Assembly: GCA_017303395.1 (NCBI GenBank)
Contig: JAFLBN010000002.1
Span: 62,001-126,000 of the forward strand
Length of the DNA: 64,000 nt
Source of the DNA: Chitinophagales bacterium
GTDB taxonomy: Bacteria; Bacteroidota; Bacteroidia; Chitinophagales; Chitinophagaceae
Direction: 5' to 3'
Positions 29,012 to 36,845 of this stretch are shown piece by piece; position 1 is the first letter of the stretch, and every line of letters begins with the position of its first letter. Below the pieces are notes generated by a model. It did no database searches. It was not told the origin of the DNA and was given only the letters and a program-made list of their open reading frames with translations. Both the position numbers and the translations under genes were made by a program.

Positions 29012-29317
29012 AGTAGTTACAGTTAGCGTAATATATTGGGTATCAGTCTGTCTTGTTTGTTGCCGTAGCAAATATGTAAAGGGTAATTGCTCTGCTTGTA
29101 TCTAATATACAACATCAGCTTTCTCATTCCAATACCCTTTAAATATAATTTTATTTGTCAGTCAAAAGCCTTACCATATCAACAATACATCATTATATAT
29201 ATAATACAAAAAACAATTTTACAACTTTATCTAAATTTTGTTTGTACATTTGTACAAGTTTCTGCGCAGGAACACTATAAACTTTTTTTTAATAACCGTT
29301 TTAAAACCCAGACTATC

Positions 29318-30511
29318 ATGTCAGAAAACACACAGGGCAACGAACAGCCCGAAAACCCGCAACAACCTGAAAACCAACATGAAAACACACAGGAGAACAC
29401 AGGTGAGAACAAAGAAGAACAAACACCCAAGCCTGCACCTTACGACCCGTCCAAAGACCCGACAAACCCGTACTACTTTCCGCCACCGCCACCTGTGGGC
29501 GATGCTATGGTAAGAGCCATCGTAGACGAGGTAGAAGGCTTTCTAAGACAACCGATAGACACGGGGATGTTTACCGTAAAAACAGCCAACCAGTGGATAG
29601 ACGAGGCCAGCAAACGCCCTATACCGCAAATGCTGTTTGACGAGCTATGGTACGAGGGAGAGATATGCATCTTCTTTGCCGATACCAACACGGGCAAGAG
29701 CATCCTTGCCGTACAGATAGCAGACAGCATCAGCCGTGGTGTACCTATCGATGGATTTAAACTATCTGCACAGGCACAGCCCGTGGTGTATTTCGATTTT
29801 GAGTTGTTCGACAAACAATTTGAACTGCGATACAGTGTAGACTATCAGCAGCACTACCGCTTTGCAGACAACCTGAAACGTGCCGAGATAGACCCCGACA
29901 TGAGCATCCCCGAGCATTATGCGTGTATGGAAGATTACCTGCACGACAGTATGGTTGAAACCATTATGGCTACAGACGCACGCGTACTTATCATTGACAA
30001 TATTACATACTTGCGGCAAGAAACAGAGAAAGCCAAAGACGCACTGCCCCTGATGAAACACCTGAAGGCACTGAAGCAGCGCTACAACCTGAGCATACTG
30101 GCACTGGCACACACACCTAAACGTGATGCCAGCAAACCACTGACAATGAACGACCTGCAAGGCAGCAAGATGTTATCAAACTTTTGCGACAGTTGTTTTT
30201 GTATAGGTGCCAGCACACAGGACAACAACCTGCGCTACCTGAAGCAGATAAAGACACGCACCAAAGAGTTTCGCTACCACGACCGCAACGTAGCCCTCTG
30301 CCGCATCGAAAAGCCCCACAACTTTCTGCGCTTTGCCCTGATAGGATACGGGAATGAATATGAGCATTTGAAAAGTGTGGAAGAAGATGAGCGTACTCAT
30401 AAGATAGCTGAAGTGAAAAGGCTGATAGATGAAGAAGGACTAAGCCAAAGAGAGGTGGCTGATATATTAGGTATTAGTACAGGTACGGTAAGTAAATACT
30501 ATAACCTATAA
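29318..30511 (+). CDS. RepA-like AAA family ATPase (mobile-element helicase type)
   Basis: 397 residues from MSENTQGNEQ; the frame extends upstream but that part is AT-rich and not protein-like. Residues 1-60 are a disordered Pro/Gln/Glu/Asn-rich tail. A RecA-like ATPase follows: Walker A FADTNTGKS at about 120-128, a DFELF segment, Walker B VLIIDNITYL and ALAHTPKR. The C-terminus is a helix-turn-helix (GLSQREVADILGISTGTVSKYYNL region, about 374-397). This matches hexameric RepA/AAA_25 helicases of plasmids, phages and integrated elements. A DUF6371 toprim-like gene follows in the same island. Confidence 0.85.
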   Translation: MSENTQGNEQPENPQQPENQHENTQENTGENKEEQTPKPAPYDPSKDPTNPYYFPPPPPVGDAMVRAIVDEVEGFLRQPIDTGMFTVKTANQWIDEASKRPIPQMLFDELWYEGEICIFFADTNTGKSILAVQIADSISRGVPIDGFKLSAQAQPVVYFDFELFDKQFELRYSVDYQQHYRFADNLKRAEIDPDMSIPEHYACMEDYLHDSMVETIMATDARVLIIDNITYLRQETEKAKDALPLMKHLKALKQRYNLSILALAHTPKRDASKPLTMNDLQGSKMLSNFCDSCFCIGASTQDNNLRYLKQIKTRTKEFRYHDRNVALCRIEKPHNFLRFALIGYGNEYEHLKSVEEDERTHKIAEVKRLIDEEGLSQREVADILGISTGTVSKYYNL

Positions 30512-30574
30512 TGCTCACACTGTTCATTTTGCTCACGATGCTCATATACTTGAGCGTTGTGAGCACTGTGAGCA
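30512..30574. repeat. Palindromic repeat, left copy
   Basis: An imperfect 63-bp palindrome built of TGCTCAC/GTGAGCA units, directly after the AAA ATPase stop. Its last 36 bp (30539-30574) match 33 of 36 positions with the reverse complement of 31588-31623. Confidence 0.8.
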
Positions 30575-30603
30575 GAGAAAAAATAAAATATTAATTTTAT
30601 ACT

Positions 30604-31575
30604 ATGCCTGAAGATATCACTAAAGAAATGAACTGGCCTAACCTAAATGCCAGAAAAGTACAAGATAGAATTTTATCCATTTTATCTAAAAATCCAAATT
30701 ATGCACAAGAAAAAGAATATATTAAAAAGATAGTCTTTAATAAATGGCAAGGAAAACTATTAGATGAAATATTTACAAGTGTAATTGCTGACTTAGTTGC
30801 CTTAGAATACATTGAGGAAGGACCATATTCTATATGGATTACTTTTAAAGGAAAAAAGTTTGTTCAAACTTCTTCCTTCCCATATAAAGGGAAGCCATTT
30901 ACATATGAATTATTCAAACAACGCGTAACTGTAATCTGGAATATTATTAAAGTAATTGCTGCTTTAATTAATGCAGTTGCTATTATATATCTGGCTTGGT
31001 TGTCTATATCAAAGCAAGAAGAATTTAATAAAGCTCAACTTCAATTACAGATATGGCAAGCAAAAGAAAACGAAAGGCAAGCAAAAGAAAATGATAGAAT
31101 AGAAAGGGAAAGATTTGATTCTATTAGCAGAAATAGCAATTACACGTTGCGAGTTAATGAAGAACAAAAGAATGCACTATTTGAGGAAGGGAAGCCACGT
31201 ATTAAACTTGAGTATCTTTCAATGTTTTACTTAAGTAATACAAACTCAATTGCGATTAGCTTTAATTATGAAAATGTTGGTAAAAGAGATGCTTTAAATC
31301 TAAAAGTTTATGCGGTCTTTACGATTAATGGAAAAACGACAAAAAAAATGATAGGTGTTAGGGATGAATTTGCTTCATTTGATAACGTAAATATTGACGA
31401 AAATATCACTTTTGTATCAGACATTTCAAATAAACATTACAACTTAACATTGCTATTTGAGTTTATAGACGCTGGAAAAAGCACTACTAAGCCTATATAC
31501 TTTGAAGGCACTATACAACAAGGCGAAATTTCATACAAAGAACTTTCTACTGGAATGTTCAAAACTATAAAATAA
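30604..31575 (+). CDS. Membrane protein of unknown function with N-terminal winged-helix-like domain
   Basis: 323 residues, visibly more AT-rich than its neighbours. Residues about 15-90 look like a winged helix (RKVQDRILSILSKNPNY, FTSVIADLVALEYIEEG, IWITFKGKKFVQ). A membrane span lies at about 115-140. A charged coiled coil (QAKENERQAKENDRIERERF) follows, and then a beta-sandwich-like domain (about 195-320, ISFNYENVGKRDALNLKVYAV). I do not recognise the family. The same span-plus-beta-domain plan occurs in the next gene. Flanking palindromic repeats and base composition suggest horizontal cargo. Confidence 0.7.
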   Translation: MPEDITKEMNWPNLNARKVQDRILSILSKNPNYAQEKEYIKKIVFNKWQGKLLDEIFTSVIADLVALEYIEEGPYSIWITFKGKKFVQTSSFPYKGKPFTYELFKQRVTVIWNIIKVIAALINAVAIIYLAWLSISKQEEFNKAQLQLQIWQAKENERQAKENDRIERERFDSISRNSNYTLRVNEEQKNALFEEGKPRIKLEYLSMFYLSNTNSIAISFNYENVGKRDALNLKVYAVFTINGKTTKKMIGVRDEFASFDNVNIDENITFVSDISNKHYNLTLLFEFIDAGKSTTKPIYFEGTIQQGEISYKELSTGMFKTIK

Positions 31576-31587
31576 GTATGATGATCC

Positions 31588-31650
31588 TGCTCACACTGCT
31601 CACAACGTTCAAGTGTATGAGCAAAATGAGCACGTGAGCAACCGTGAACA
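31588..31650. repeat. Palindromic repeat, right copy
   Basis: A second 63-bp imperfect palindrome of TGCTCAC units, 12 nt after the stop of the 323-residue gene, inverted relative to the left copy at 30512-30574. Confidence 0.8.
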
Positions 31651-31667
31651 AAAACCACAAAACTACA

Positions 31668-31725
31668 GAGTCATTGCGAGGCACGAAGCAACTTCTCTCA
31701 TGGAGCGTAGCGGAATAATCTCACG
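31668..31725 (+). repeat. ATTGCGAGG repeat, C variant, interrupted copy
   Basis: GAGTCATTGCGAGGCACGAA and GCAA (31668-31691) followed, after a 25-bp interruption, by AATCTCACG (31717-31725). It is in plus orientation upstream of the 178-residue gene. It carries C where copies near the GIY-YIG gene carry A (GGCACGAA against GGAACGAA). Confidence 0.7.
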
Positions 31726-31758
31726 TAATACCAATTATTTCACCAACCATAAACAATC

Positions 31759-32295
31759 ATGAACAGGATTAAAGTATTTATTGAAAAATGGAAGGCAGAA
31801 TTTAATATAGAAAAAACTGCAACTACTGCCATTGCTGTACTATCTTTTATTATTTCTGTGTATACAATCTGCCAAAGCCAAAAACAATTCACACGAAATA
31901 TTAGACCATTCGTATGGGCAGCAAGCTATAGCTTTCACGGGCCTAATGGATTACAAAATATCCCACATCGCCTTGCATACCGTGTTAAAAATGCACCTGC
32001 AAGAATATTATCAGTGAATGTAAAATTTATGCTGAACGATGTAGAGCTATTCGCTTTCCCAGATAGCAATGTTGTTAGGTATCCAGATGAAACATCTGAA
32101 TGGAGTCATGGTCTAAACCAACATACATTTAATCAAATAATGAATAGACCTATTGCCGAGCAACAAAATCTGAGAAGGATAGTTGACATAGCGTATCAAT
32201 CACTTGATGGAGGCGATACATACACCTTCAATATGGTACAAGGATATGTTCCGGCAGATAGCCAGTGGAGAGACATTGATGTGAAAGCTAATTAA
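31759..32295 (+). CDS. Single-span membrane protein of unknown function
   Basis: 178 residues. A short basic N-terminus is followed by one membrane span (about 20-42, TAIAVLSFIISVYTICQS) and a beta-rich domain (about 50-178) beginning RNIRPFVWAASYSF, with ILSVNVKFMLNDVELF as a strand pair. The plan resembles the second half of the gene at 30604-31575. I do not recognise a family. It is flanked by inverted copies of the ATTGCGAGG repeat, all of the C variant, which suggests it is carried with that repeat. Confidence 0.7.
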   Translation: MNRIKVFIEKWKAEFNIEKTATTAIAVLSFIISVYTICQSQKQFTRNIRPFVWAASYSFHGPNGLQNIPHRLAYRVKNAPARILSVNVKFMLNDVELFAFPDSNVVRYPDETSEWSHGLNQHTFNQIMNRPIAEQQNLRRIVDIAYQSLDGGDTYTFNMVQGYVPADSQWRDIDVKAN

Positions 32296-32303
32296 AGAAC
32301 ACC

Positions 32304-32321
32304 AGATTGCTTCGTGCCTCG
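32304..32321 (-). repeat. ATTGCGAGG repeat, C variant, partial inverted copy
   Basis: AGATTGCTTCGTGCCTCG, the reverse complement of the repeat core, 9 bp after the stop of the 178-residue gene. The rest of the unit is replaced by unrelated sequence. Confidence 0.65.
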
Positions 32322-32457
32322 ACCCGAAGTATCGGGATGCGAACACAATGACGGGAGTAAATAGCCATCCTTAGCTTGGCAGTACAGTCGAGGTGCAGCT
32401 ATATCAAGGCAACACCCGACTTTAAGGCAGTTTTTAAAGTCGGCGGCTTTCTTTGTT

Positions 32458-32492
32458 ACTTTCTTTTCCGCAAAAGAAAGTAAAGGCTCGCG
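32458..32492 (-). repeat. Inverted copy of the 27.6-kb hairpin repeat
   Basis: Contains CTTTCTTTTCCGCAAAAGAA and then AAAGGCTCGCG, the reverse complement of 27600-27635 with small differences. A separate short hairpin (GACTTTA with TTTAAAGTC) lies just upstream. Confidence 0.75.
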
Positions 32493-32510
32493 GAGAGCAA
32501 GCACTCATTT

Positions 32511-32539
32511 CGTGAGATTGCTTCGTGCCTCGCAATGAC
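32511..32539 (-). repeat. ATTGCGAGG repeat, C variant, full inverted copy
   Basis: A complete 29-bp unit in inverted orientation beginning CGTGAGATTGCTTCGTGCCT. It has G (C on the other strand) at the position that distinguishes the two variants. Confidence 0.8.
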
Positions 32540-32544
32540 GCAGA

Positions 32545-32736
32545 TTAATTATAATTCTTAGGGTCATAATCTTTAGGTATAGCATTTCCCTCTTTTAGCA
32601 TCTCTATTTCTGAAGGAGTAAAACGTTTGTGGATATGATATAAAATTTCTTGTGGGCGAGGATTCCTATTAAATCCAACTTCCATTTGCAATTCTGCATA
32701 CCTGCTTATTAACATCGAGTACACTTGTTCGTTCAT
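32545..32736 (-). CDS. Small hypothetical protein, 63 residues
   Basis: Composition looks protein-like: MNEQVYSMLISRYAELQMEVG, then NPRPQEILYHIHKRFTPSEI and a polar tail ending DPKNYN. Two helices are likely, with no membrane span or signal. I do not recognise it and there is no clear ribosome binding site. It lies on the opposite strand to the flanking island genes, so confidence is moderate. Confidence 0.45.
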   Translation of the reverse strand: MNEQVYSMLISRYAELQMEVGFNRNPRPQEILYHIHKRFTPSEIEMLKEGNAIPKDYDPKNYN

Positions 32737-32812
32737 TATTAATAATATTTAATGCACTATAAATTTCCTGATATTTTTATAAAGAATCTGTTAAGCTTTC
32801 AATCATCAACCA

Positions 32813-33694
32813 ATGAAAACCTATCGTTACACACTACAGCCCTATAAGGGGCGCAACACACGTTATACCTGTCCGCAGTGCGGGTGCAAGGATGTATTTG
32901 TCCGCTATATCGATACCAATACCGGAGAACACCTGGCAGAAGACGTGGGCCGTTGCAATCGGGAGCAACAATGCGGGTATCACAAACCACCCCCAAAGGG
33001 AAATACTAATATCGAATACCGAAATCCAAAGAAACAAATACAACAACCTAACATTTACCACACAACTAATCAACCAATAAACCAATCAACAAGTCAACTA
33101 AAAGCCATCTTCAAAAACTCCCTCTGTTGTTATCCGCAAAACGGACTGGCGCAATACATCTACCACACCTACGGCTGGCAGGCTATGGAGCGTGTGTTGG
33201 ATGCCTATCGCATAGGTAGTCATACAGACGGCAGCACCATCTTCTGGCAGATAGATGCACAGCAACGCATCCGCAGTGGCAAGGTAATACAGTACGATGC
33301 ACAAACAGGCCATCGCATCAAGGGTACAGACACACCACCCGTACGCTGGGTACACAGCCTGCACAAGCTACAGGGGTTTACACTCCATCAATGTTTTTTT
33401 GGTGAGCATCTGCTGAAAGGTAATCGTCGCCTACCCATAGCCATTGCCGAGAGCGAGAAGACAGCCGCTATAGCCAGCATCCGCATGCCTCAATACCTGT
33501 GGTTGGCAACAGGCGGCATCCGCAACCTGAGTGCAGAAAAATGCAGTGTACTGGAAGGCAGGCAAATCATCCTCTTTCCCGATGCAGGTGCTTGGGACTA
33601 CTGGCACAGCATTGCCACCCAAATACGCAAGTGCAGCATCAGCCATGTACTACAACACCACACAGACGGCAGCGATATTGCAGACTATTTGTAG
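32813..33694 (+). CDS. DUF6371-type toprim-like protein (probable primase-type partner)
   Basis: 293 residues. The N-terminus RYTLQPYKGRNTRYTCPQCG starts a zinc ribbon with Cys20, Cys23, Cys48, Cys54 and His57, as in DNA primases. The C-terminal half has toprim-like motifs: IAESEKTA (acidic residue at about 213) and LFPDAGAWDYW (Asp at about 257). A polar linker at about 84-96 (TTNQPINQSTSQL) is encoded by a dispersed DNA repeat. With the AAA helicase upstream it could form a replication module of an integrated element. No integrase or relaxase is in view. Confidence 0.75.
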   Translation: MKTYRYTLQPYKGRNTRYTCPQCGCKDVFVRYIDTNTGEHLAEDVGRCNREQQCGYHKPPPKGNTNIEYRNPKKQIQQPNIYHTTNQPINQSTSQLKAIFKNSLCCYPQNGLAQYIYHTYGWQAMERVLDAYRIGSHTDGSTIFWQIDAQQRIRSGKVIQYDAQTGHRIKGTDTPPVRWVHSLHKLQGFTLHQCFFGEHLLKGNRRLPIAIAESEKTAAIASIRMPQYLWLATGGIRNLSAEKCSVLEGRQIILFPDAGAWDYWHSIATQIRKCSISHVLQHHTDGSDIADYL

Positions 33695-33809: not shown

Positions 33810-34379
33810 ATGAAGGACACACCGATAGAAACTTTCCATCCTGCCGGCCAAAAAGATTGGCGCAAGTGGTTGCAAAAGCATCATGCAAGCAAACAGTCTG
33901 TATGGCTCATATACTACAAGCAAAGCACGGGCAAGCCCAGCCTCAGCTGGAGCGATGCGGTTGACGAAGCCCTCTGTTTCGGGTGGATAGACAGTACCGC
34001 CCGCCCTGTAGATGAGGAACGATATATGCAATACTTCTGCAGGCGCAAACCAAGCAGTGTATGGTCCAGAATCAACAAAGAAAAAGTAGAACGCCTGATA
34101 GCCAACGGGCAAATGACACAAGCGGGTTTGGATAGTATCAACATCGCCAAACAAAACGGTTCATGGACGTCTATAGACGCGGTAGAAGCCCTCGAAGTAC
34201 CCAAAGAGCTTGCCAAAGCACTCAGCGCACACAAGGGTGCCAAAGCCTGTTTCGAAAGCCTCAGCAAATCTGTAAAGAAGCAAATGCTGCACCGCATCGC
34301 CATGGCCAAACGCCCCGAAACACGCACCAAACGCATTGACGATATAGTAGCCGAAGTATTGGAGAAAATGAAGAAGTGA
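33810..34379 (+). CDS. YdeI/OmpD-associated family protein
   Basis: 189 residues. WRKWLQKHHASKQSVWLIYYKQSTGKPSLSW, then EALCFGWIDSTARPVDEERYMQYFCRRKPSSVWSRINKEKVE, is the signature of the OmdA/YdeI family, and the C-terminal AMAKRPETRTKRIDDIV helix is also typical. These small soluble proteins have been linked to bacteriocin or peptide tolerance in a few cases; the biochemical role is unclear. It sits at the right end of the island. Confidence 0.85.
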   Translation: MKDTPIETFHPAGQKDWRKWLQKHHASKQSVWLIYYKQSTGKPSLSWSDAVDEALCFGWIDSTARPVDEERYMQYFCRRKPSSVWSRINKEKVERLIANGQMTQAGLDSINIAKQNGSWTSIDAVEALEVPKELAKALSAHKGAKACFESLSKSVKKQMLHRIAMAKRPETRTKRIDDIVAEVLEKMKK

Positions 34380-34471: not shown

Positions 34472-34514
34472 GAGTCATTGCGAGGAACGAAGCAATCTCA
34501 CGAAATGCAGGGTT
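34472..34514 (+). repeat. ATTGCGAGG repeat, A variant, upstream copy 1
   Basis: A 43-bp unit containing the 29-bp core (34475-34503) that begins TCATTGCGAGGAACGAAGCA. Identical over its whole length to 34608-34650. Confidence 0.9.
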
Positions 34515-34607
34515 ACTTCACAATGTATAAGTTAATGACACTCATAATATCCATTCTCTAAAACCAACAACAACATCTGTATCTATCAACACAAACCCCC
34601 AAAAAAC

Positions 34608-34650
34608 GAGTCATTGCGAGGAACGAAGCAATCTCACGAAATGCAGGGTT
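34608..34650 (+). repeat. ATTGCGAGG repeat, A variant, upstream copy 2
   Basis: Identical to 34472-34514 over 43 bp; the core is 34611-34639. It ends 16 bp before the ATG of the GIY-YIG gene. Confidence 0.9.
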
Positions 34651-34666
34651 GTATTATATTTACCGT

Positions 34667-34960
34667 ATGCACAAAGGCGGGGCTGTTTACATATTATCAT
34701 CACCCAATAGAAGTACACTATACATTGGTGTGACATCAAACCTGCCTAACCGTATTACAGAACATCAGCAAAAGAAAAATCCTACAGGTTTTGCTGCACG
34801 GTACAATTGTGTTGTACTTGTTTATTATAATCTGTTCGAATATATAGAAGATGCCATCAGGGAAGAAAAACGACTGAAGGGTTGTAACAGGGAATACAAG
34901 GAGCAACTGATTGAACAAATGAATCCTGATTGGAAGGATTTGGCTGTCGAGTTGTATTAG
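34667..34960 (+). CDS. Single-domain GIY-YIG endonuclease
   Basis: 97 residues from the ATG at 34667; a TTG at 34649 overlaps the repeat and is unlikely. The whole protein is one GIY-YIG domain of the UvrC/YhbQ-like type: VYI (7-9) and LYIGVTSNL (18-26), the catalytic Arg in LPNRITEH (29), and the metal-binding Glu in AIREEKRLKG (66-67). It should nick or cut DNA; the target is unknown. The gene is bracketed by two direct repeats upstream and two inverted copies of the same repeat downstream. Its last codons are part of the downstream 59-bp duplication. Confidence 0.9.
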   Translation: MHKGGAVYILSSPNRSTLYIGVTSNLPNRITEHQQKKNPTGFAARYNCVVLVYYNLFEYIEDAIREEKRLKGCNREYKEQLIEQMNPDWKDLAVELY

Positions 34961-35005
34961 GCTCATGTTATCGTGAGATTGCTTCGTTCCTCGCAATGAC
35001 ACTCA
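34947..35005 (-). repeat. 59-bp repeat with inverted ATTGCGAGG unit, copy 1
   Basis: Starts inside the last codons of the GIY-YIG gene and contains the inverted 29-bp core at 34971-34999. 57 of 59 positions match 35023-35081. Confidence 0.9.
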
Positions 35006-35022
35006 GATAGTTTTGATTTCTC

Positions 35023-35081
35023 TCGAATTGTACTAGGCTCATGTTATCGTGAGATTGCTTCGTTCCTCGCAATGACACTCA
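35023..35081 (-). repeat. 59-bp repeat with inverted ATTGCGAGG unit, copy 2
   Basis: A direct copy of 34947-35005 at a period of 76 bp, with the inverted core at 35047-35075. It includes a relic of the GIY-YIG gene's last codons and stop (TCGAATTGTACTAG). Confidence 0.9.
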
Positions 35082-35210: not shown

Positions 35211-36845
35211 ATGCATAACGCTTATTTTCATTACGAACTGCCAAAGAACGAAACAGTACTGAACTACGGCCCTAAAAGCCCTGAACGTGCTGCATTGCAA
35301 AAAGCCATTGCCGACCTGAAAAGCCAGACACGCGATATACCTATGTACATCAACGGTGTGGAAGTACGCACAGGCGATAAGAAAGAAATCCGTCCGCCAC
35401 ACGAAACAGGCCACTTGTTAGGTCATTTTCATGCAGGTGGTGCAGAGTATGTAAAGCAGGCTATAGATGCTGCGCTGGAGGCTCGTAAATCTTGGGCAGA
35501 AATGCCATGGGAACATCGTGCTGCCATCTTCCTGAAGGCTGCAGAGTTGCTGGCTACCAAGTATCGCTTCAAAATGAATGCGGCTACTATGTTAGGGCAG
35601 AGCAAGAATGCGTATCAGGCAGAGATAGACAGTGCTTGTGAGCTGATAGACTTCCTGCGTTTCAATGTTCACTTCCTTGCAAAAATCTATAACGAACAAC
35701 CGATATCTACACCTGCCTTCCACAACCGTATGGAATACCGTCCGCTGGAAGGTTTTGTACTGGCTGTAACACCGTTCAACTTTACAGCTATAGGTGGCAA
35801 CCTGCCTACTGCACCTGCCATGTGTGGCAACGTAGTGGTATGGAAACCTGCCAATACACAGATATACAGTGCATCTGTATTTATGGAGATACTGATGGAA
35901 GCAGGCCTGCCTGCAGGTGTTATCAATCTGGTATATCCTCCCGGCCCTGTAGTTGGTGAAATATGCTATGCACATCCTGATTTTGCAGGTGTACACTTTA
36001 CAGGTTCTACAGGCGTATTCCAAAGCATGTGGAAGAGCATAGGCGAGAACATTGCGAAGTACAAATCTTATCCGCGCATAGTTGGCGAAACAGGTGGTAA
36101 AGACTTTGTAATGGTTCACCCGAGTGCAAATGCAGATGCTGTAGTGGCAAACCTTGCCCGTGGTGCTTTCGAGTATCAGGGACAAAAGTGTAGTGCTGCA
36201 AGCCGTGCATACCTGCCTAGCAATCTGGCAGAAGAAATCAAAACAAAACTGGTAGCTGAAATAAAAACCATGAAGATGGGTGTGGTAGATGATTTTACCA
36301 ACTTCATCAACGCGGTGATAGACGAGAAGTCTTTCAACAGCCTTGCAAAATATATAGATGGTGTAAAGAACAGCAACGGACAGGCAAGCATTCTGTGCGG
36401 TGGTACTTATGACAACAGCAAAGGCTGGTACATAGAGCCTACTGTGATAGAAGCTAAAACACCTGACTATGTAACGATGTGCGAAGAACTCTTCGGACCT
36501 GTGTTGACTATCTACACATACGATGCAGACAAGTGGGAAGACATCCTTGACACAGTAGACCATACAAGCGGCTATGCACTGACGGGTGCTATCTTCTCTC
36601 AAGACCGTTATGCAGCAGAATACATGACACGCAAACTGGTAAACGCTGCGGGCAATTTCTACATCAACGATAAACCAACGGGTGCGGTAGTAGGTCAGCA
36701 ACCATTTGGTGGTGCACGTGCATCTGGCACTAACGATAAAGCAGGCTCTGCATTAAACCTGTATCGCTGGTTGAGTGCAAGAACCATTAAGGAAACATAC
36801 GTACCTGTTACAGACTACAGGTATCCTTTCCATCAGGCAGATTAA
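35211..36845 (+). CDS. pruA: L-glutamate gamma-semialdehyde dehydrogenase (1-pyrroline-5-carboxylate dehydrogenase)
   Basis: 544 residues. It oxidises glutamate semialdehyde, formed from P5C, to glutamate with NAD+, the second step of proline use. The stand-alone PruA N-terminus is present, and the aldehyde dehydrogenase core has VTPFNFTAIGGNLPTAPA, FTGSTGVFQ, the general-base Glu in IVGETGGKD and the nucleophile Cys in YQGQKCSAASRAY. The C-terminus has QQPFGGARASGTNDKAG, typical of P5C dehydrogenases. No proline dehydrogenase gene is next to it. A 369-codon antisense frame over it is a shadow. Confidence 0.95.
   Translation: MHNAYFHYELPKNETVLNYGPKSPERAALQKAIADLKSQTRDIPMYINGVEVRTGDKKEIRPPHETGHLLGHFHAGGAEYVKQAIDAALEARKSWAEMPWEHRAAIFLKAAELLATKYRFKMNAATMLGQSKNAYQAEIDSACELIDFLRFNVHFLAKIYNEQPISTPAFHNRMEYRPLEGFVLAVTPFNFTAIGGNLPTAPAMCGNVVVWKPANTQIYSASVFMEILMEAGLPAGVINLVYPPGPVVGEICYAHPDFAGVHFTGSTGVFQSMWKSIGENIAKYKSYPRIVGETGGKDFVMVHPSANADAVVANLARGAFEYQGQKCSAASRAYLPSNLAEEIKTKLVAEIKTMKMGVVDDFTNFINAVIDEKSFNSLAKYIDGVKNSNGQASILCGGTYDNSKGWYIEPTVIEAKTPDYVTMCEELFGPVLTIYTYDADKWEDILDTVDHTSGYALTGAIFSQDRYAAEYMTRKLVNAAGNFYINDKPTGAVVGQQPFGGARASGTNDKAGSALNLYRWLSARTIKETYVPVTDYRYPFHQAD

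Follow-up and report, generated by a model that had tools for sequence, protein, structure and literature searches.

A lone GIY-YIG nuclease gene between inverted REP repeats as a candidate mobile unit in bacteria

The unit in the window and its nuclease

The window, i.e., the whole stretch of 64,000 nucleotides of Chitinophagales DNA that was analyzed, lies within contig C12 of a 3.76 Mb genome (G000; 44 contigs). Between an OmdA-domain gene (33810-34379) and an aldehyde dehydrogenase gene (35211-36845), it harbors the gene of a single-domain GIY-YIG nuclease of 97 aa (34667..34960, plus strand), which is bracketed by REP repeats. Four REP cores of 30 bp each, two on the plus and two on the minus strand, are all identical. 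The outer left REP (34474..34503, plus strand) shows this identity over 30 bp and has a short leader fragment of the unit after it; the inner left REP (34610..34639, plus strand) has its GTC tag directed outward, with the ATG 27 nt downstream. The inner right REP (34971..35000, minus strand), its tag also outward, has the stop codon 10 nt upstream, and the outer right REP (35047..35076, minus strand) lies where one REP is kept in a related species without the gene. Bounded by the inner copies, the minimal unit has the order REP, 27 nt, GIY-YIG gene, 10 nt, REP.

The first-pass annotation had reported four mismatch-free cores, two direct before and two inverted after the gene, and both arrangement and positions were confirmed. 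Its 29-bp core is identical among the copies as described but one base longer, and its set of four overlooked two one-mismatch copies at 31671-31690 (plus strand) and 32519-32538 (minus strand). These form an inverted pair of their own, which encloses a 178-aa ORF without Pfam match at E 0.01. The tag reads AGTC in the left copies of the unit and TGTC in the right ones, with the tail CTC; several further copies in the genome have a CGTC or TGTC tag. The first 20 REP bases occur six times in the window at up to three mismatches compared to 0.00 expected in shuffled windows, and the first 25 bases 17 times in the genome at the same stringency. Chance as an explanation was rejected on the basis of this expectation and of the controls described below.

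Sequence repetition extends beyond the cores. The direct copies have 50 nt in common, a stretch that takes in part of the gene's leader. The inverted copies belong to a 62-nt direct repeat (95% identical) that covers the last codons and the stop of the gene. Since these last codons recur next to the outer right REP, a second unit seems to have been present here and to have decayed; the repeat copy directly before this REP (35020..35046, plus strand) is probably what remains of the 3' end of that GIY-YIG unit. A stretch of 17 nt (34534..34550, plus strand) resembles the outer edge of the inverted REPs (76% and 88%); this weak match is possibly the end of a collapsed unit that starts at the outer left REP and could also be due to chance. 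An AAA_25/HTH protein and a zinc-ribbon/DUF6371 protein are encoded near the unit (29087-33694); at a guess, the two may serve an integrated element as its replication module.

The nuclease matches PF01541 with E = 1.1e-13 over profile positions 3-74 of 78. Translation from the ATG at 34667 yields the 97 aa, and an alternative TTG at 34649 would extend the protein to 103 aa. Among 59 aligned sequences, Y19, G21, H33, E67, and N86 are invariant and Y8 and R29 are conserved in at least 90%. The GIY-YIG active-site residues are thus present (Y8, Y19-G21, R29, E67, and N86); we take them to be the two tyrosine motifs, the Arg, the Glu, and the C-terminal Asn of the active site. This agrees with the earlier description of a 97-residue GIY-YIG protein with catalytic Arg and Glu. 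An AlphaFold2 model (mean pLDDT 96) predicts a lone GIY-YIG domain without an added DNA-binding domain. The closest solved structures by sequence are two UPF0213 proteins (E 1.1e-5 and 2e-4), and the closest folds are UPF0213 (E 5.8e-4) followed by Slx1 (0.038) and UvrC (0.44), the last two being above 0.001. No NCBIfam family matched at E 0.01, and a phage gene was ruled out by the lack of any match among 50,697 phage records at E 1e-5. The window's genome contains four GIY-YIG matches, namely the unit's gene, another stand-alone gene, and frames of 617 and 469 codons. The other stand-alone gene (L001 1402-1812, contig C42) adjoins two CGGGTTCGAGTCCCGTCCG copies resembling tRNA T-arms, and no inverted repeat of at least 18 nt was found at it within the stretch searched.

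REP repeats at related nuclease genes

Relatives of the nuclease were gathered by protein sequence alone, without use of the repeat. Matches were found in 102 of 195 genomes of the window's bacterial family, with a patchy distribution and up to six per genome. For a wider set, a species collection was scanned with an alignment of 22 relatives; 551 stretches were confirmed, and the best of these gave 79 loci, 77 of which could be used for the flank-arm test since two lie too near a contig end. Comparison of the 350-bp flanks without a repeat model revealed inverted arms scoring at least 20 at 28 of the 77 loci compared to 0 of 509 control positions within these loci, and direct matches of this score at 36 of 77 loci compared to 3 of 509. 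Across very different organisms, many of the arms share a common layout consisting of GTC, a stem starting A(T/C), the complementary stem, and C, and in many relatives they carry a CGTC or TGTC tag.

With a finder for this layout, a GTC-tagged REP was detected within 350 bp of the gene at 68 of the 79 loci and on both sides at 50. The nearest REPs form a tag-outward pair at 36 loci, an inward pair at 8, and other combinations at 6. REP density amounts to 7.6 per kb in the first 100 bp upstream and 8.6 per kb downstream and to 0.09-0.14 per kb beyond 700 bp, i.e., it is ∼60 times higher near the genes. Control finders with the tags CTG, GTG, and GAC or a G tail gave hits at 2, 6, 0, and 6 of the 79 loci, respectively. 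For comparison, 532 other ORFs of at least 100 aa lie in these loci; REPs flank 12 of them on both sides, with a tag-outward pair at one, and 146 have a REP on some side, partly because they neighbor the unit. The values for ORFs of 60-160 aa are 8, 2, and 37 of 186, respectively. Because the finder demands complementarity, a stem by itself is not independent evidence of a hairpin; such evidence comes from the many arms that show the REP layout when retrieved by left-right similarity alone.

REP-positive loci comprise 45 of 51 from Bacteroidota, 13 of 17 from Pseudomonadota, 2 of 3 without phylum name, and the one locus each from Verrucomicrobiota, Ignavibacteriota, Atribacterota, Spirochaetota, Planctomycetota, Bdellovibrionota, Campylobacterota, and Omnitrophota, where most sequences are metagenome bins and could have been binned wrongly. 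The strict finder was negative at 11 of the 79 loci, and four of these (L071, L075, L102, and L117) have inverted arms of another make that score at least 20. It also misses the CCTC tag variant of Sinorhizobium (L192), where the GIY-YIG gene is flanked by CCTC-tagged hairpins recognized by eye at 2300-2500 and 2740-2980.

In the family to which the window belongs, a REP was found at 55 of 70 close relatives (taken from 76 listed matches with E <= 1.1e-15), on both sides at 39, and the strict finder detected none at the other 15. REP density is 5.3 per kb within 100 bp of the gene and drops to 0.45 per kb at 700-1500 bp, with less contrast than the wider set shows. Weaker GIY-YIG relatives (20 of the 33 listed matches with E 2.4e-7 to 1.1e-5; listed matches with E between 1e-15 and 2.4e-7 are left out of this comparison) have a REP at only 1 of 20 loci, and this sole match, GTCATTGGTTCGAATCCAATCCG, resembles a tRNA T-arm. 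These loci, together with the second stand-alone gene of the window's genome and its lack of an inverted repeat, ruled out that REPs are a trait of all stand-alone GIY-YIG genes.

When folded as DNA, two proteobacterial REPs lie well below shuffled sequences (z -4.39 and -3.18), and the ATTCCCGC type of Proteobacteria forms an 8 bp stem with a 4-nt loop. The window REP folds into a 5 bp stem with a 10-nt loop (-2.4 kcal/mol, z -0.51 vs shuffles), and two other Bacteroidota types do not fall below shuffles at all (z +0.17 and +0.28). With such a weak hairpin, the window's enzyme would need to stabilize it or to read duplex DNA.

Repeats with this kind of tag have been described as CGTC REPs. 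The relevant part of the survey by Di Nocera et al. 2013 (PMC3733652) defines them by a CGTC, TGTC, or CCTC tag, a stem of 8-9 bp with A-T pairs first, a loop of 4-5 nt, and an unpaired tail that is mostly CCA, and equates the neisserial ones with dRS3. It records them in five phyla, including neisserial dRS3, RPE-4/RPE-6 of Rickettsia, and Wolbachia repeats, and names Azospirillum lipoferum as a carrier (PMC3733652). The repeats of the window's genome and of its relatives carry tags of this superfamily and seem to share its AT closing pairs and hairpin. Stem and loop of the ATTCCCGC type are as defined, and the tail is CCA at many proteobacterial loci; in contrast, the Bacteroidota version in the window combines a 5-bp stem and a 10-nt loop with AGTC or TGTC as its tag and CTC as its tail. 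Judged by these features, the repeats appear to match the published CGTC REPs in Proteobacteria and to resemble them in the window. Moreover, A. lipoferum and a Neisseria record have a GIY-YIG gene among such repeats. In the latter, from Neisseria gonorrhoeae, the gene is found inside an array of eleven dRS3-type repeats (L191 1767-3108).

REP types, gene-less sites, and dispersed copies

Several genomes encode more than one nuclease, each with its own REP. In genome G132, five paralogs go along with five REP types, and the left flank best matches its own right flank in all five cases. Among 25 paralog loci from 11 genomes, the own right arm was best at 19, one was a tie (L034), and at five the arm of a paralog scored better (L136, L155, L158, L048, and L041). 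Three of these exceptions reach scores of up to 11 for their own arm, which corresponds to background; for L136 and L155, which reach 15 and 22, the cause is probably that the paralogs of G026 and G104 have REPs resembling each other. Pairing of paralog and REP is clean in some genomes only. Exact copies were counted genome-wide for four of the five G132 types, leaving out the type at L138. The ACTGC type has three copies, two at L132, the ATGTT type three, all at L156, the TTGCGACG type two, both at L024, and the common ATTGC type 17, two of which are at L134.

A similar picture emerged in G169, which belongs to the window's genus. Here, a 77%-identical nuclease is flanked by a REP with an ATGGC/GCCAT stem, in which both sides of the stem are changed. 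This type has 11 copies in G169 and none in G000 or G094. A second paralog goes with an ATTTC type (three copies in G169, two at its gene) that is absent from G000 and G094, and eight ATTGC-type repeats of G169 lie away from its two closest nuclease genes. Mapped onto a protein tree (169 proteins, 96 columns, poorly resolved), REP stem type requires 34 changes for 109 loci compared to 62.0 +- 2.2 after shuffling (lowest 56); 15 of 124 loci with rare stem types are left out. Within a single bacterial family, 17 changes for 46 loci compare to 28.2 +- 1.4 (lowest 24). REP stem type thus follows the nuclease tree, and the presence of a REP as such is also clustered on it (24 changes vs 40.0 shuffled).

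At the level of whole genomes, an exact ATTGC-type REP and a GIY-YIG match (E <= 5.1e-11) occur together in 21 of 195 genomes; 46 have the gene only, 8 the REP only, and 120 neither (odds ratio 6.8, Fisher p = 8e-6). Gene-only genomes are expected since other REP types exist. Three of the eight REP-only genomes, out of 29 family genomes with this REP, have weaker GIY-YIG matches; gene loss or diverged relatives would be the sole explanations we can offer for the eight, a result that weakens the story. The link between REP and GIY-YIG genes, on which the first-pass reading depends, is accordingly supported by the strong concentration at relatives and by REP types of their own in several genomes, and it is weakened by the REP-only genomes and by inverted REP pairs around other genes.

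Such further pairs are present in the window's genome (C41:108370-109177, C10:45628-48208, and C26:6171-7163; L012, L013, L006, L014, and L018). They bracket an HEPN-like gene (below cut-off), SIR2_2 plus a small ORF, and a protein without match over cut-off; it may be that cargo is carried between REP pairs or that these mark variable sites. In another genome (L223; G172 C6:33500-36500), at least seven plus-orientation repeats, spaced by ∼130 nt, precede at least seven minus-orientation ones, and no GIY-YIG frame or relic was seen between these arrays.

Comparison of orthologous sites with and without the gene, as the first-pass annotation had proposed, gave largely supportive results. In A. 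lipoferum, a GIY-YIG gene and REPs are located between sufB and sufC, whereas gene and REPs are both missing between these genes in A. ramasamyi, A. oryzae, and strain B510 (mean identity 95-96%). Among 129 records matched, only A. lipoferum covers at least 80% of the query, and the insertion borders are inexact because the intergenic DNA differs and is too diverged. A REP or REP-like palindrome stays behind at other sites. In Sphingobium, the unit region was found in seven plasmids at an identity of at least 94.5%. At the unit site of TomTYG64, the left half of one REP is joined to the other REP's right half in a single palindrome (L202 1040-1190), and TomTYG74 has a near copy of it (L203 995-1140); no REP is present at this site in TomTYG72 and TomTYG65. 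The chimeric palindrome could be the footprint of a loss, by excision or slippage, or an earlier state. Two genomes with a 99%-identical dehydrogenase protein allow a comparison at the site of the window's unit. In G197, the unit is present with a single left REP; G198, a species of the window's genus, has another gene and one REP at the outer right place. Neither an insertion with exact borders nor a target-site duplication was seen at the Azospirillum and Sphingobium sites compared.

Dispersed deletion derivatives were searched for in one genome, that of Sphingomonas sp. IC081 (G207), which contains 14 matches to the ATTCCCGC pattern. Two full units at different places have the same REP-to-REP length (379 bp). 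Four deleted derivatives of 129-141 bp keep both REPs, the gene start, and about the last 60 nt of the gene, and a fifth at another site has one diverged REP. As one deletion junction is common, closely or exactly, to four of the five derivatives, a single deleted unit has probably multiplied. Beyond ∼70 nt, the left flanks show no relation to each other (scores up to 11) apart from a single pair (28), and several right flanks share a further repeat (scores 21-44). Shared sequence runs ∼60 nt (left) and ∼75 nt (right) past the REPs, indicating that REPs need not be the element ends in IC081. In this one genome, the unit behaves like an insertion sequence in having copies at several loci with differing flanks and a non-autonomous form.

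A proposed action of the GIY-YIG nuclease on its own REP

On these comparative data, the unit is real, widely recurrent, paired with its repeat in several genomes, and mobile in at least one, and ordinary explanations fail for it. We consider it likely that it represents a REP-bounded mobile element whose only gene encodes a single-domain GIY-YIG nuclease that would act on its own REP. This is close to the mobile or repeat-spreading unit suggested by the first-pass annotation, a reading that gains support from the association with REPs and their prevailing orientation, the pairing of REP and nuclease in several genomes, the gene-less sites, and the dispersed deletion derivatives of IC081. From this pattern we infer an action of the nuclease on the REP, the form of DNA it cuts, the exact ends of the element, and its copying route.

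In our model, each REP has GTC first, then a stem that opens with A(T/C), the loop, the stem strand complementary to the first, and a final C. The nuclease would most likely recognize its cognate REP via tag and stem sequence and then cut it, the target probably being a folded single strand or a cruciform REP. New copies, either of the whole unit or of shortened forms with the REPs retained, would then arise elsewhere by repair or replication; the non-autonomous products would be solo REPs, REP dimers, and units with internal deletions. Slx1 is a nuclease for branched and flap DNA; since the nearest folds include it, we favor a structure-reading nuclease that would cut the extruded REP, with the stem supplying specificity.

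A homing-like selfish gene is a rather improbable alternative, in which the nuclease cuts REPs elsewhere and unit-templated repair copies the gene into these existing REPs, the REPs themselves having been spread by something else or long ago. Free-standing GIY-YIG homing endonucleases do exist, and the gene-less sites of G198 and of the two Sphingobium plasmids keep one REP or a chimeric palindrome. However, three gene-less Azospirillum relatives have no REP at the site, a gene-dead deletion derivative is found at several loci with differing left outer flanks, and three G132 REP types are almost confined to their gene, which leaves few sites for homing.

It is very unlikely that another enzyme, i.e., RAYT/Y1 or some other transposase, moves the REPs and that the GIY-YIG genes are riders between them. 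REP pairs do bracket other genes in the window's genome, such as the HEPN-like and SIR2_2 genes, and related genomes encode Y1 transposases (12 Y1_Tnp matches in four of five genomes). Yet no Y1_Tnp match was found in the window's genome, and none of the 12 loci has a GTC-tagged REP within the stretch examined, on which grounds RAYT was rejected as the REP mover; this search covered the Y1_Tnp family only. Riders would explain neither one REP type per paralog nor the match to the tree, and the 2013 survey describes CGTC repeats beside transposase genes as just a few and fortuitous (PMC3733652). Least probable of all is a host function, with REPs as terminator or mRNA-stability hairpins or chromosome marks and a nuclease domesticated for processing or repair: Slx1 and UvrC are repair folds, but the patchy multicopy distribution (102 of 195 genomes, up to six copies), the deletion derivatives, and the gene-less orthologous sites fit a selfish unit better.

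The REP-bounded element that we propose would work like the RAYT/REP pair, with an unrelated enzyme. Like it, RAYT/GTAG-REP pairs (REPtrons; see Di Nocera et al., PMC3733652) are single-gene nuclease units with inverted REPs on both sides, repeat-specific pairing in multi-type genomes, and solo REPs and REP dimers elsewhere. In contrast, the window enzyme is a GIY-YIG protein (PF01541) and not an HUH/Y1 tyrosine transposase, and its tag is (C)GTC instead of GTAG.

Other systems are more distant. Like the unit's gene, free-standing GIY-YIG homing endonucleases are selfish genes; the window enzyme lacks their DNA-binding extension, and the unit has paired flanking hairpins and deleted derivatives. 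UPF0213, Slx1, and UvrC domains, which have housekeeping or unknown roles, are similar to the window nuclease in sequence or fold, whereas the 20 weaker GIY-YIG relatives examined have no REPs save for one false positive. IS elements with MITEs comprise full copies and internally deleted copies that keep their ends, as seen in IC081; unlike these, the unit has no known transposase, and neither exact ends nor a target duplication were seen for it.

In the portion consulted, the GIY-YIG superfamily survey of Dunin-Horkawicz et al. 2006 (PMC1564403) ties no GIY-YIG gene to such repeats. A published link between a GIY-YIG nuclease and REPs was not found among the best matches in open-licence literature, which has preprints outside it and few subscription papers, and the letters of the window repeat were found in none of its papers; a prior description of the link may nevertheless exist.

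The idea of a REP with a dedicated nuclease is already known from RAYT. Transposable elements are classed by the chemistry of their enzyme, and to our knowledge no class has a lone GIY-YIG domain as its only enzyme. For this reason, we rate the unit as new in kind; on a stricter view, it could be a variant of the REPtron idea. With slightly more reserve than for the unit itself, we think it probable that GIY-YIG nucleases acting on their own hairpins constitute an autonomous element class in as many as ten phyla (eight by one locus each), providing the missing enzyme of CGTC REPs, including neisserial dRS3, and an independent counterpart of RAYT.

For CGTC REPs a dedicated transposase is apparently absent, according to the part of the 2013 survey that treats them (Di Nocera et al. 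2013, PMC3733652), and these repeats were left there without a mobilizing enzyme; the paired GIY-YIG nuclease makes the question testable. Nucleases of ∼100 residues with targets of ∼26 nt that differ within one genome would offer a natural series for studying how a minimal GIY-YIG enzyme reads hairpins. If our reading is true, enzyme-plus-hairpin repeat spreaders would have evolved at least twice in bacteria, with unrelated nuclease folds.
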